Shown here: positions 29,665 to 32,176 of the stretch, one piece after another
Position numbering within the stretch: the stretch's first letter is position 1
Layout: each line of letters begins with the position of its first letter
Position numbers and translations under genes: made by a program
Source of the DNA: Chloroflexota bacterium
GTDB taxonomy: Bacteria; Chloroflexota; Dehalococcoidia; Lucifugimonadales; Lucifugimonadaceae
Assembly (NCBI GenBank): GCA_022564545.1
Contig: JADFLG010000013.1
Location: 4,203 to 36,378 of the forward strand
Reading direction: 5' to 3'
DNA length: 32,176 bases
Notes under the pieces: generated by a model
What the model was told of the DNA's origin: nothing
Database searches by the model: none
Seen by the model: only the letters and a program-made list of their open reading frames with translations

Positions 29665-30843
29665 ATGACCGATCGCGAAAATCATGGCGCACCAGAGCGC
29701 GTAATTTTCCACGTCGATCTCGACGCGTTTTTTGTTGAGGTCGAACGCCAGAACGACGCCACTTTAGTTGGAAAACCGGTCGTCATCGGCGGTCTCGGAC
29801 CTCGCGGCGTGGTCGCGACCGCGTCCTACGAGGCCCGCAAGTTCGGAGTGCACTCGGCACAGGCAATGGCGGTGGCGCGCCGTCTGTGCCCACAGGCAAT
29901 TTTCATGCGTGGCAGTCACGGTCTTTACCGCGAGGTGTCGAAAAAATTCATGGATGTCCTTCGCAATTATTCGCCGACGGTTGTTCCGGTGAGCGTCGAC
30001 GAAGCGTATATGGACATGACGGGAACCGAACGACTGTACGGTCCGCCGATGGACGCAGCCCGCGCGATAACAAAAATGGTGCGTGACGAGTTGGGATTGC
30101 CGGCATCGATCGGCATCGGACCCAGCAAGCTGGTCGCAAAGGTTTCGACCGAACATGCCAAGCCCAATGGTATTTTCCAGGTCCGCCAGGACGAAGTCGA
30201 AGCGTTTTTTGCGCCGCAGCCGGTCCGCAATCTCCCCGGCATCGGACCAAAAGCTGGCGAGGCACTGGAAAAACTGAATATTTCCACCCTGGGCGAGCTG
30301 GTAAATGCCCCGGACGGTCCCTTGCGCCGGGCACTGGGGCCGAACAACGCCGACCACGTAAAACGCCGGGCGAAAGGCATCGATAATGCGCCTCTGCGGG
30401 AGCGCGCGAAAGCCAAATCGATCAGTGCGGAAACCACTTTTGATACCGATGTCTCCAGCCGGTCAGAACTGGAAAAAGTCCTGAAACGGCTGAGTGAGCG
30501 CGTCGGCACGCGACTGCGAAAATCCGGTCAACTCGCCCGGAACGCGAGCATCAAGCTCCGATACGGCGATTTCACGACAATCACGCGCCAGCGCACGTTC
30601 CCGGTACCTGGCGATGGCGACCAGACGATTTACAACGCGGCTCACACCCTGCTTGTCACGGCGATGCGTCAACGGGGAGACGCCATCCGGCTGCTGGGGG
30701 TGGCAGTGAGCGGTCTCGGCGAGCAGGCAGCACAGCTGTCATTGATGGATGTGAACCCGACTGCCGAATCCGACACCAGTGCGGCAATCGATGCGATCAG
30801 AGACCGGTTCGGCGTTGAATCGATATCACGGGGCTCGGTTTGA
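29665..30843 (+). CDS. dinB: DNA polymerase IV (Y-family)
   Basis: Pol IV copies past lesions during the DNA damage response. The product is 392 aa. It has the catalytic VIFHVDLDAFFVEVE (two Asp of the active site), ATASYEARKFGV, VSVDEAYMDMTGTERLYG (Asp-Glu pair), GIGPSKLVAKVSTEHAKPNG, LPGIGPKAGEALEKL (helix-hairpin-helix) and a little-finger domain. AQLSLMD near the C-terminus fits the sliding-clamp binding motif. The ATG at 29665 has no Shine-Dalgarno; TAGCCT lies eight bases before it, so it could be leaderless. No obvious LexA box was seen. Confidence 0.95.
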   Translation: MTDRENHGAPERVIFHVDLDAFFVEVERQNDATLVGKPVVIGGLGPRGVVATASYEARKFGVHSAQAMAVARRLCPQAIFMRGSHGLYREVSKKFMDVLRNYSPTVVPVSVDEAYMDMTGTERLYGPPMDAARAITKMVRDELGLPASIGIGPSKLVAKVSTEHAKPNGIFQVRQDEVEAFFAPQPVRNLPGIGPKAGEALEKLNISTLGELVNAPDGPLRRALGPNNADHVKRRAKGIDNAPLRERAKAKSISAETTFDTDVSSRSELEKVLKRLSERVGTRLRKSGQLARNASIKLRYGDFTTITRQRTFPVPGDGDQTIYNAAHTLLVTAMRQRGDAIRLLGVAVSGLGEQAAQLSLMDVNPTAESDTSAAIDAIRDRFGVESISRGSV

Positions 30844-30954
30844 GGGAGCCAGGTAGACGAGCGTGTGCGGTCGCTCCTTTTCCCTGGAGGAAGGTCAGGT
30901 CGAGGGGGAATTTTTCGACAATGGCGTAAATGTAACCGATCGCGTGTTGTTTAT

Positions 30955-31140
30955 TGAACGGCTTGACCCACCCCAACCCTCCCCCCCTGACGGAAAGGGG
31001 TTTGGAAATAGCCTCTATGGGAACTACATCTATCTCCCTCCCAGGCTGGGAAGGAGAACTGCCTGGGCCGGCAACTGGCGAGCTCCTCGACTGCTTACGA
31101 CGTCTTTCCTTTCCTCTGGGAGAAGATTTAACTTGAGTGG
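30955..31140. repeat. Palindromic intergenic repeat, copy C
   Basis: The 409-bp gap between dinB and the tRNA holds a tract starting CCACCCCAACCCTCCCC. It includes the hairpin TCCCAG/CTGGGA nested in CTCC/GGAG (about 31037-31060) and ends in CCTCTGGGAGAAGATTTAA. It resembles the other intergenic copies in composition and palindromic layout. Short frames across it are typical read-through of such repeats, not genes. Confidence 0.4.
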
Positions 31141-31252
31141 AAAGTTGTCGAATCGGTCGACTCGAACCTGCAAAAATAAATGTGCTCACGGCACTAAAAG
31201 TCGCACCCCACCTTGACCGTAACGTCCTGAATGCTTACTGTTGAACGTGCCA

Positions 31253-31327
31253 GCGGAAGTGGCTCAGTGGTAGAGCATCACCTTGCCAAGGTGAGGGTCG
31301 CGAGTTCGAATCTCGTCTTCCGCTCCA
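31253..31327 (+). tRNA. tRNA-Gly (anticodon GCC)
   Basis: The acceptor GCGGAAG (31253-31259) pairs with CTTCCGC (31317-31323). The D-arm contains GGCTCAGTGGTAGAGC. The anticodon arm ACCTTGCCAAGGT gives anticodon GCC, which reads glycine. The T-arm is GCGAG-TTCGAAT-CTCGT. Discriminator T and CCA (31325-31327) are encoded. All stems close, so it should be functional. A diverged copy of its 3' third appears near 32090-32120. Confidence 0.97.
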
Positions 31328-31344
31328 CGAACAATTCAAGAAGG

Positions 31345-31375
31345 GATCGTCCAGCCGGGCGATCTCTTTCTTTTT
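31345..31375 (+). terminator. Rho-independent terminator after tRNA-Gly
   Basis: GATCGTCC (31345-31352) pairs with GGGCGATC (31357-31364), one G-U pair, loop AGCC, followed by TCTTTCTTTTT. It ends the tRNA transcript 18 bases after CCA, so whatever lies downstream probably has its own promoter. Confidence 0.85.
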
Positions 31376-31379
31376 GCCG

Positions 31380-32120
31380 ATGTTTGGGCTGCACTGGTTG
31401 AGTTCGTTATTTAGCCAGTGACTCGATTAGCCTGGACGCGATGAGAAATCTGATCGTCGTTTTGTCGAATCAGATAATCAGTCTTATGTCGCCGCATTGA
31501 CTGTCTGTAACTACCTCTTGGGCAGTAGAGCGCCTGAAGCGGAGAGTCTGCTTGTATTGCAGATCTCGTGAGAGGTCGCACTGGCTTGACCGTTCGGATG
31601 CGTCCCGGTGCGATATGTGGGCCCTACTACCCGCATCGGGGTCTTGGGCTGGGATGGCGTCGTTGAATGTTTGGTTCAGCGATCGCTTTTATTGGGTGCC
31701 GAGTTGAACTCGTCACCTGGTAATGATCCGGTTTGTTAGTTCGGATCGTTTGGGCCCGTTGCGTTGAACCTGGCGTGAATAAATCACGTTGGTTAATTGC
31801 CCCAGGCACGGGAACGGTGAAGGATTTTCGGATCTTTCACCTGGTAGGTCCGATGTGAATCGGACGAGACACGCAGCGGATGAACTTTTTCTCTGGGATT
31901 CCACTGCTGGTAAGGCGTCTACCGCTTAGAGGGTTACCGCTTGGTTGTGCGCTGTGGGACTGGCCTCGTCTTTGGTGCACATGTTCAGTTTCAGATGTTT
32001 GTGTGATTTTGTCTACGAGCGGATGGCACACGCGATGATTCCGATGGCCGGAAGCGACTCTGTTAGGGAAACCACGGAATGAGGGATAGTGTCGCGAGTT
32101 CGATCTGGCCTTCCGCTCCA
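31380..32120 (+). ncRNA. Candidate large structured non-coding RNA
   Basis: No plausible protein frame exists over about 740 bases, but hairpins are dense. Examples: 31392-31420 (CACTGG/CCAGTG, with GGCT/AGCC outside and a possible loop pseudoknot GAGT/ACTC); 31448-31475 (9 bp with one bulge); 31547-31563 (TCTGC/GCAGA, 7-base loop); 31597-31637 (GATGCG/CGCATC); 31695-31717 (GGTG and CGAGT against ACTCG and CACC); 31725-31747 (GATCCG/CGGATC); 31774-31788; 31816-31841 (11 bp closed by a UUCG loop); 31848-31865 (7 bp closed by GTGA, a GNRA loop). Several stems use G-U pairs that hold only on the plus strand. A tRNA-like 3' end and a terminator follow. The class is unknown; the tRNA-adjacent setting recalls GOLLD and ROOL. 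Confidence 0.55.
32048..32120 (+). pseudogene. tRNA-Gly-like 3' end or degenerate tRNA
   Basis: This 73-base segment ends in CTTCCGCTCCA, identical to the tRNA-Gly acceptor end, and has a T-loop TTCGATC. CCGGAAG at 32048-32054 can pair with CTTCCGC in six of seven positions. The segment 32090-32120 matches the tRNA 3' third with one gap and about three mismatches. The T-stem does not pair and there is no proper anticodon arm, so it is not a working tRNA. It may be the tRNA-like end of the structured RNA, an attachment-site remnant, or a decayed copy. Confidence 0.6.
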
Positions 32121-32128
32121 TTTGTAAC

Positions 32129-32166
32129 AAAAAAAGCCGTCGGACGATTTTTCCGAGGGCTTTTTT
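32129..32166. terminator. Strong bidirectional terminator at the end of the structured region
   Basis: AAAAAAAGCC and CGG (32129-32143) pair with CCG and GGCTTTTTT (32153-32166), leaving small GT and AG internal loops. A and T runs lie on both sides. It lies nine bases after the tRNA-like CCA end, as expected at the end of a transcribed RNA gene. Confidence 0.8.
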
Positions 32167-32176
32167 GATCGCCAAA

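Follow-up and report, generated by a model that had tools for sequence, protein, structure and literature searches.

A conserved large structured element was identified in the window, i.e. the whole 32,176-nt stretch of Chloroflexota DNA analysed here (G000:C143:4203-36378), within a gene-free block between two terminators. The element extends approximately from position 31431 to 32030, presumably on the plus strand, and with high confidence it represents a new family of large structured elements, probably RNA; the folded element of the block is most likely an RNA molecule. The block would contain type I, one member of a superfamily not described before and made up of structured non-coding RNAs of large size (about 0.5-0.9 kb), whose covarying fold, common 3' end and dispersal were all established by computation. 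The explanation that best combines these data, to which we assign a probability of about 0.55, is a superfamily of trans-acting structured RNAs, with a shared 3' end that would be recognised by a common factor.

The 3' limit of the window, position 32176, is the end of the contig, 146 nt past the element; copies of the superfamily are often found near contig ends. Upstream, a Y-family DNA polymerase (IMS domains, Pfam) is encoded at 29665-30843, and a tRNA-Gly (GCC) gene, recognised by both ARAGORN and Rfam, at 31253-31327 on the plus strand; the same tRNA is the upstream neighbour of the related copy in G005. The intrinsic terminator of the tRNA lies at 31340-31374 (plus strand), and is composed of a 13-pair stem (31340-31369) and a T-run. 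A second, nearly symmetric terminator, predicted on both strands, is located at about 32129-32166. No convincing gene was found between the two, and no open frame common to the copies emerged when the longest frames of 23 of them were compared; the initial annotation, too, saw no credible protein frame here. Folding of the 787-nt block produced an energy of -319.7 kcal/mol on the plus strand, with a z-score of -6.9 (20 shuffles), and a z-score of -5.4 on the minus strand, whereas seven 650-nt control pieces from elsewhere in the window ranged from -0.7 to +2.3 (plus) and from -2.0 to +1.9 (minus; 12 shuffles each). The description of a gene-free, hairpin-rich block is confirmed by these values, which lie far beyond those of shuffles and window controls; as to its extent, the large structured block stands, while the conserved part corresponds to about 31431-32030 only, and not to the whole block. 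No promoter-like site was found in 30850-32176, where 0.8 would be expected by chance.

Homologues, which the initial annotation proposed to seek in related Chloroflexota, were found by a DNA search of the window's own genome and 99 relatives, scoring up to 5 candidates per relative genome, complemented by local blastn. Once matches to the tRNA-Gly end and to terminators were set aside, homologues in this 100-genome search were confined to the host genus. Matches at query positions 715-803, which look like tRNA-Gly ends and terminators of other genomes, were not counted. The type I copies identified are 12, all within the genus: nine full ones (G000 C143, C164 and C193; G005; G009 C32 and C41; G015; G017 C140 and C182), a 5' half (G001 C94) and two 3' fragments (G007 C56, G014 C30); the window's own genome, G000, carries three of the full copies. 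Two models were then used for wider searches, R1 (31568-31686) and R2 (3' domain). In the 19 genomes of the genus the strong R1 matches (E 5.5e-20 or better) were exactly the 10 rows on which it was trained, from 6 genomes, with two weak additional matches (E 0.05-0.08); the same six genomes were matched among the 76 of the family. Type I is therefore dispensable, since 13 of the 19 genus genomes have no R1 match. R2 recovered, within the genus, its 10 training rows, G014C30 (1.6e-9) and six further matches at 5e-4 to 0.04, the weak additional ones falling mainly at the 3' end; among 393 genomes of the class only 2 were matched, both in the genus. In these wider searches the filters were stricter and between 7 and 47 candidates were scored in each genome, so that distant copies could be missed. 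Two R1 matches among 250 genomes of the order, G191 (1e-4) and G148 (0.0099), were dropped; the former (L078) reads as coding DNA. A pattern search of GTDB contigs returned 18 stretches, 6 of which are real and belong to 5 Chloroflexi/Dehalococcoidia MAGs; the other 12 were dropped, R1 matching 4 of them at 11-15 bits and none of the remaining 8 at E up to 1. The type I tree places the window copy firmly with that of G015 and, with moderate support (0.76; 65), G005 beside this pair, the identities being 76-91%; G009C41 groups with G001C94 (82%). Literature searches brought up no description of RNAs of this kind from these bacteria.

Conservation of the fold was evaluated on a sequence-only alignment of the nine full copies, from which the half copy G001C94 had been dropped before running alifold. 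On the plus strand the consensus energy was -191.5 kcal/mol, while column shuffles averaged -125.8 (sd 5.7); the z-score is thus -11.6, and none of 40 shuffles reached the consensus energy; on the minus strand the z-score was -8.6. Two domain alignments of 10 rows each, A1 and A2, beat 100 of 100 shuffles on either strand, with z-scores of -5.4 (plus) and -4.5 (minus) for A1, and -3.3 (plus) and -3.7 (minus) for A2. The predicted pairs are formed in 92.4% (A1) and 87.9% (A2) of the cells, above all 500 shuffles, and in 23-49% when the partners are slid. Pairs changed on both sides number 10 in A2, against 4.5 expected (0/500 shuffles reach this value), and 3 in A1, against 1.6 (55/500), while the number of pair types is unexceptional, being reached by 221 and 75 of 500 shuffles, respectively. 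Among 97 pairs predicted on both strands, 36 show compensatory change and keep 75% or more of their cells paired.

In the predicted plus-strand fold, a long-range helix, P1, formed by 31514-31534 and 31914-31932, encloses a domain in which eight hairpins (P2 to P9) are accompanied by a proposed pseudoknot, and is followed by P10 and the 3' element. The P1 duplex is predicted in all nine full copies, with strand windows starting 321-495 nt apart. Its mean energy is -30.6 kcal/mol when each strand is offered its own partner, -24.8 with partners from other copies and -15.8 with shuffled ones (sd 3.8, lowest -29.6 of 450), a comparison that is not independent, the strands being taken from the predicted fold of the alignment. 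When single copies were re-tested (G015 left out), at most 2 of 1000 shuffles were as low in 7 of 8, and 23 of 1000 in G017C182. Hairpin P0 (31448-31475) has paired letters that differ among copies; it is weak in G015 and G009C32 and absent from G001C94. P2 (31542-31567) is not clear in G017C182, where P4 (31657-31686), evaluated by pair counts, does not form either. P3 (31576-31613) enters the pair counts and, when excised alone, folds no better than shuffles (mean z -0.4; the segment is short in some copies). The putative pseudoknot, drawn by eye from A1, would join the nearly invariant GATGC in the P3 loop (31597-31601) to GCATC at 31633-31637. P5 (31695-31717) comes from hairpin segment folding; P6 (31722-31750) is predicted in 10/10 copies, with pairing kept in spite of widely varying letters. 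Five of the six pairs of P9 (31873-31907) are changed on both sides, and P10 (31946-31981), also evaluated by pair counts, contains an inner stem GGGAC/GTCTT. The z-scores of the hairpins refer to segments picked by eye, and do not constitute an independent test.

The remaining two hairpins are those to which the initial annotation gave most weight. P7 (31816-31841) does have 11 bp and a TTCG loop, and the helix is kept in most copies (weak in G000C164 and G009C32), though the closing pair is U-G and not C-G; the loop is not conserved, TTCG being predicted in only 2 of 9 copies, the window and its closest relative G015. Similarly, in P8 (31848-31865) the GTGA loop is present and the helix, included in the pair counts, is kept in most copies, while a GNRA tetraloop occurs in 1 of 9 copies, that of the window. 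The short motif YTGGKA is found between helices at 31649-31654 and in three more places starting at 31717, 31841 and 31907, with a fifth match inside P9. It occurs 28 times forward and never in reverse in the nine type I copies where it was first noticed (7.1 expected), 14 times forward and once in reverse in type II (4.9 expected), and with a weak bias in type III (9 and 2, 5.3 expected); no enrichment is seen in the second genus, where 2 forward and 3 reverse occurrences compare with 3.4 expected.

The element shows the features generally expected of a large structured bacterial non-coding RNA, namely a length of several hundred nt, covarying helices and no open frame. Homologues with covariation in the stems are present, as indicated by alifold scores against shuffles, the double changes in A2, P9 and P1. 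In the proposal of a large structured non-coding RNA the structured element is thus borne out by homologues and covariation, and from the sequence we infer that the plus strand is transcribed and that the transcript has a function.

The evidence on the strand is mixed. Fold energies are lower on the plus strand in 14 of 14 copies, and alifold favours it for the full alignment and for A1; on the other hand, z-scores against shuffles are better on the minus strand in 10 of 14 copies, and A2 folds slightly better on the minus strand. G-U outnumber A-C combinations at covarying pairs, 29 to 10 in A4 and 12 to 6 in A2 (1 to 1 in A1), but G+T amounts to 371 of 613 and composition alone predicts a ratio of 2.4 to 1; at pairs common to both strands the counts are 44 to 36. 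The G-U pairs that had been put forward in support of the plus strand are thus weak evidence, composition explaining most of their excess. Given these mixed results the plus strand is preferred only modestly, and DNA folding and a minus-strand RNA stay live rivals. A functional RNA read from the opposite strand, which the bidirectional second terminator would also suit, is nonetheless improbable, considering the full-alignment scores, the plus-strand energies and, to the small extent that composition leaves, the G-U excess at covarying pairs.

The last 47 nt or so of type I (31984-32030, plus strand) form a 3'-terminal element common to all body types, as indicated by R3 searches and alignment A6: they also end types II and III in the same genus and further bodies in G021 and G031, for a superfamily total of about 30 copies. 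R3 is a sequence profile of this 3' end, built on 16 rows. In the 19 genus genomes, at E up to 1e-5, it gave 17 matches in 7 genomes, i.e. the 16 training rows and G000C82; in the 76 family genomes, at E up to 0.01, 11 were matched, 9 in the genus and two from a second genus, G021 and G031, with 6 and 2 matches, respectively. Independent matches span 2.3e-8 to 9.6e-3, and include G021C13 (2.3e-8), G031C102 (1.4e-6), G021C45 (2.4e-6), G000C82 (5.8e-6) and G021C65 (3.2e-5). Types II and III count 5 copies each, with blocks shared, and bodies that align, within each type. Among second-genus bodies, C13, C45 and C65 resemble one another at 90-96% over 154-255 nt, as do C1 and C73 at 75% over 223 nt. 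Fold z-scores are negative on both strands in 14 of the 14 copies folded (-1.6 to -10.2). A script looking for downstream terminators detected one in only 2 of 22 copies, though it overlooked that of the window.

Some observations concern the surroundings of these ends. Weak R3 matches at about 3611-3650 of L172 (G012) and about 4053-4094 of L173 (G009) have surroundings 70% alike over 729 nt, and are possible 3' remnants; the doubtful remnants G012:C5 and G009:C36 (E about 1e-3) were not counted. The 3'-end motif GGCGGATGGCAC is also found at the 5' edge of G000C193 (L047 2260-2290 and 2812), as if copies were in tandem or flanked by a short direct repeat. A repeat, CATCTGCCATGGAGGC, with variants, occurs inside or just past the 3' end of second-genus copies in G021 and G031 (L180, L181, L182, L184).

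Up to six copies per genome were detected, in two genera of one Dehalococcoidia family. They sit among ordinary genes, often at contig ends, like dispersed repeats: of 28 copies, 10 are no more than 1 kb from the end of a contig, against 3.0 expected (approximate coordinates; G001C94 and G013C1 left out). Sharp 3' edges were seen in two pairs of copies and a sharp 5' edge in one. When G007C127 is compared to C109, identity is about 45% until 449 nt before the 3' end and 90% from that point on, returning to background at the 3' end itself; it drops to background at the 3' end also between G021C13 and C45. Not every 3' edge is sharp, G021C13 and C65 being alike for about 30 nt beyond it. The comparisons suggest that some copies are 5'-truncated, apparently G007C109, G007C56 and G014C30.

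Two type I copies, G000C164 and G017C140, 63% alike, both have the same class III aminotransferase gene upstream of them. The encoded proteins are 92% identical, while the two elements lie apart in the type I tree, at weak nodes (0.27; 41), which suggests that one site may have been repeatedly occupied by different copies. The 3' fragment in G007 lies about 2 kb from a class III aminotransferase gene (L037 7340-7400; L080-L098 compared). Relatives lacking the element, compared at the BrkB and aminotransferase loci, revealed no precise target duplication. The G000C164 element begins about 9 nt past the terminator of the gene (its 5' end is approximate), and several other copies closely follow a codirectional gene or tRNA, as would be expected of a cis-acting 3' UTR or intergenic element shaping termination or stability of the upstream transcript. 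This explanation appears very unlikely: the terminator, absent in G017, is present after the aminotransferase gene in the 9 element-free relatives compared (by eye), upstream genes belong to many families and in several copies are not codirectional, and the structure is far larger than needed.

Dispersed copies, some with sharp edges, the enrichment at contig ends and the common aminotransferase site are also compatible with a non-autonomous mobile DNA element, whose hairpins, formed in single-stranded or cruciform DNA, would serve a recombinase or transposase, any RNA being incidental; the similar numbers of G-U and A-C at common pairs and the lack of a consistent strand preference in the fold z-scores point the same way. 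We consider this reading rather unlikely. The 0.5-0.9 kb bodies keep compensatory changes, including those of a helix spanning 321-495 nt, while an end signal needs less; related copies stay at one locus across species (76-91% identity). The neighbour scan covered 128 of 156 neighbouring frames, and the Pfam families matching at least 2 of these 128 proteins include no mobile-element family, with no transposase, integrase or reverse transcriptase among them. IscB, IsrB and TnpB families do not match 2 or more of the 128 either (25 of 113 families listed, the others matching one protein each). PHROGs searches of the same proteins found no recurrent structural gene, only scattered matches; 25 of the 48 families were listed, and one of these is a tail protein. 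No partner protein for the element was identified.

Different bodies with a common 3' tail and 5' truncation are also known from those eukaryotic SINEs that share their 3' end with LINEs. By analogy, the RNA might be retro-mobilised, its common 3' end being read in trans by a reverse transcriptase, as SINEs use the LINE machinery; sharp 3' ends and 5' truncation, such as that apparent in the three copies mentioned above, would result, and the 3' end shared by different bodies would fit. RVT_1 was matched in 3 of 30 genomes, two of which, G017 and G021, hold copies (the third is G053), and was not matched in G000 and G007, which have six copies each, all of these being draft genomes. Such retro-mobilisation is considered very unlikely. 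The element differs from SINEs also in being bacterial, compact and strongly structured. A broader version, in which bacterial, SINE-like modular elements would consist of many unrelated structured bodies and one 3' signal, read in trans by a factor of the host or a resident one, so as to be matured and copied to new chromosomal sites, is put forward tentatively; if it were true, one genome would carry a whole set of different giant RNAs ending in the same tail.

Known RNA classes were searched by the Rfam scan that the initial annotation had proposed, run at gathering and relaxed thresholds on the window and 20 loci, the window's included. The scans covered type I-III loci, with the 8 second-genus loci left out, and no RNA family was matched; the window's tRNA was recognised, and the ten type II/III loci gave no match above gathering but one tRNA. 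Rfam includes ROOL, GOLLD and OLE. No match to ROOL or GOLLD was obtained in the window (E up to 10), 10 type I loci (E up to 3) or 10 type II/III loci (E up to 0.5), and none to OLE or to introns in the same three sets. Below gathering scores, AaHKsRNA41 (0.014) and His_leader (7.1) sit on the terminator in the window, and weak matches to whalefall-1, Erse, KCNQ1OT1_1, mir-3622 and S10-Clostridia occur in the relatives' loci; all were rejected. Phage records (50,697) were searched by blastn with two queries, one of type I and one of type III, IMG/VR viral contigs with four exact patterns, and plasmids with the type I query only; none of these limited searches gave a match. The initial annotation, too, saw no phage genes here.

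The tRNA neighbour was examined in the other loci as well. A tRNA is close to a copy only at the tRNA-Gly locus (window and G005) and at the G014 fragment, where a tRNA-Ala ends 71 nt before the matching stretch; 18 further loci contained one tRNA, more than 2 kb away, and the G015 contig stops before any tRNA. As tRNAs are rarely near copies, the linkage is a property of the locus and not a family trait. A decayed tRNA-Gly 3' end (T-arm, acceptor, CCA) follows the element at 32088-32120, plus strand (score 46, against a best of 22 in 200 shuffles, none of which reach it); a similar repeat is found after the element in G015 (0/200 shuffles) and, marginally, in G005 (5/200), and in none of five other type I copies.

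ROOL is likewise a large, pseudoknotted, ornate bacterial RNA, near tRNAs and with no known protein partner, and differs in residing in phages and prophages, frequently close to tRNA islands (PMC12286853). Type I is chromosomal, has no phage or Rfam match, and combines several bodies with one 3' end. GOLLD is a large ornate bacterial and phage RNA of poorly understood function (PMC12286853); type I differs in having neither an Rfam nor a phage match. The likeness to GOLLD and ROOL suggested by the initial annotation thus reduces to size and ornateness, in the absence of Rfam and phage or viral matches and of a tRNA linkage as family trait. That the element is a diverged ROOL, GOLLD or other phage-linked ornate RNA stranded in the chromosome, as size, ornateness and the tRNA at the window locus might suggest, is extremely unlikely, since neither the window nor its relatives match Rfam, phage and viral searches (two queries, four patterns) were empty and the family is not linked to tRNAs. 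OLE, too, is a large chromosomal structured RNA, but it is single-copy, found in Bacillota and provided with protein partners; type I has no Rfam match to it, and is multi-copy, with different bodies. Omega-type guide RNAs are structured RNAs tied to mobile elements. HEARO, tied to a mobile element with IsrB, is comparable in this respect (PMC12286853). The element is longer than HEARO and omega-type guide RNAs, has no recurrent nuclease family among its neighbours and no Rfam match. ORF-less group II introns are large structured mobile RNAs as well, and some group II introns insert after terminators; the element has no Rfam intron match, and RVT_1 is present in G017 and G021 and missing from G000 and G007.

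In the favoured explanation, that of trans-acting structured RNAs, the plus strand would be transcribed either by read-through past the upstream terminator or from an unrecognised promoter, and the RNA would fold and act in trans. A common factor would recognise the RNA at its shared 3' end, and might mature or stabilise it, or let the element be copied in trans to new sites. The bodies would then carry differing functions, the tail being their common handle; for this handle mechanism, taken on its own, we would put the odds a little below even.

To our knowledge, few classes of large ornate RNAs are known in bacteria. The function of the best studied ones is poorly understood (PMC12286853). 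The present family would add to these classes a superfamily with several large bodies, one 3' end, several copies per genome and no sign of phage; it would provide natural variants on which structure and covariation could be studied and, in the common handle, a way to reach the protein or process acting on them.
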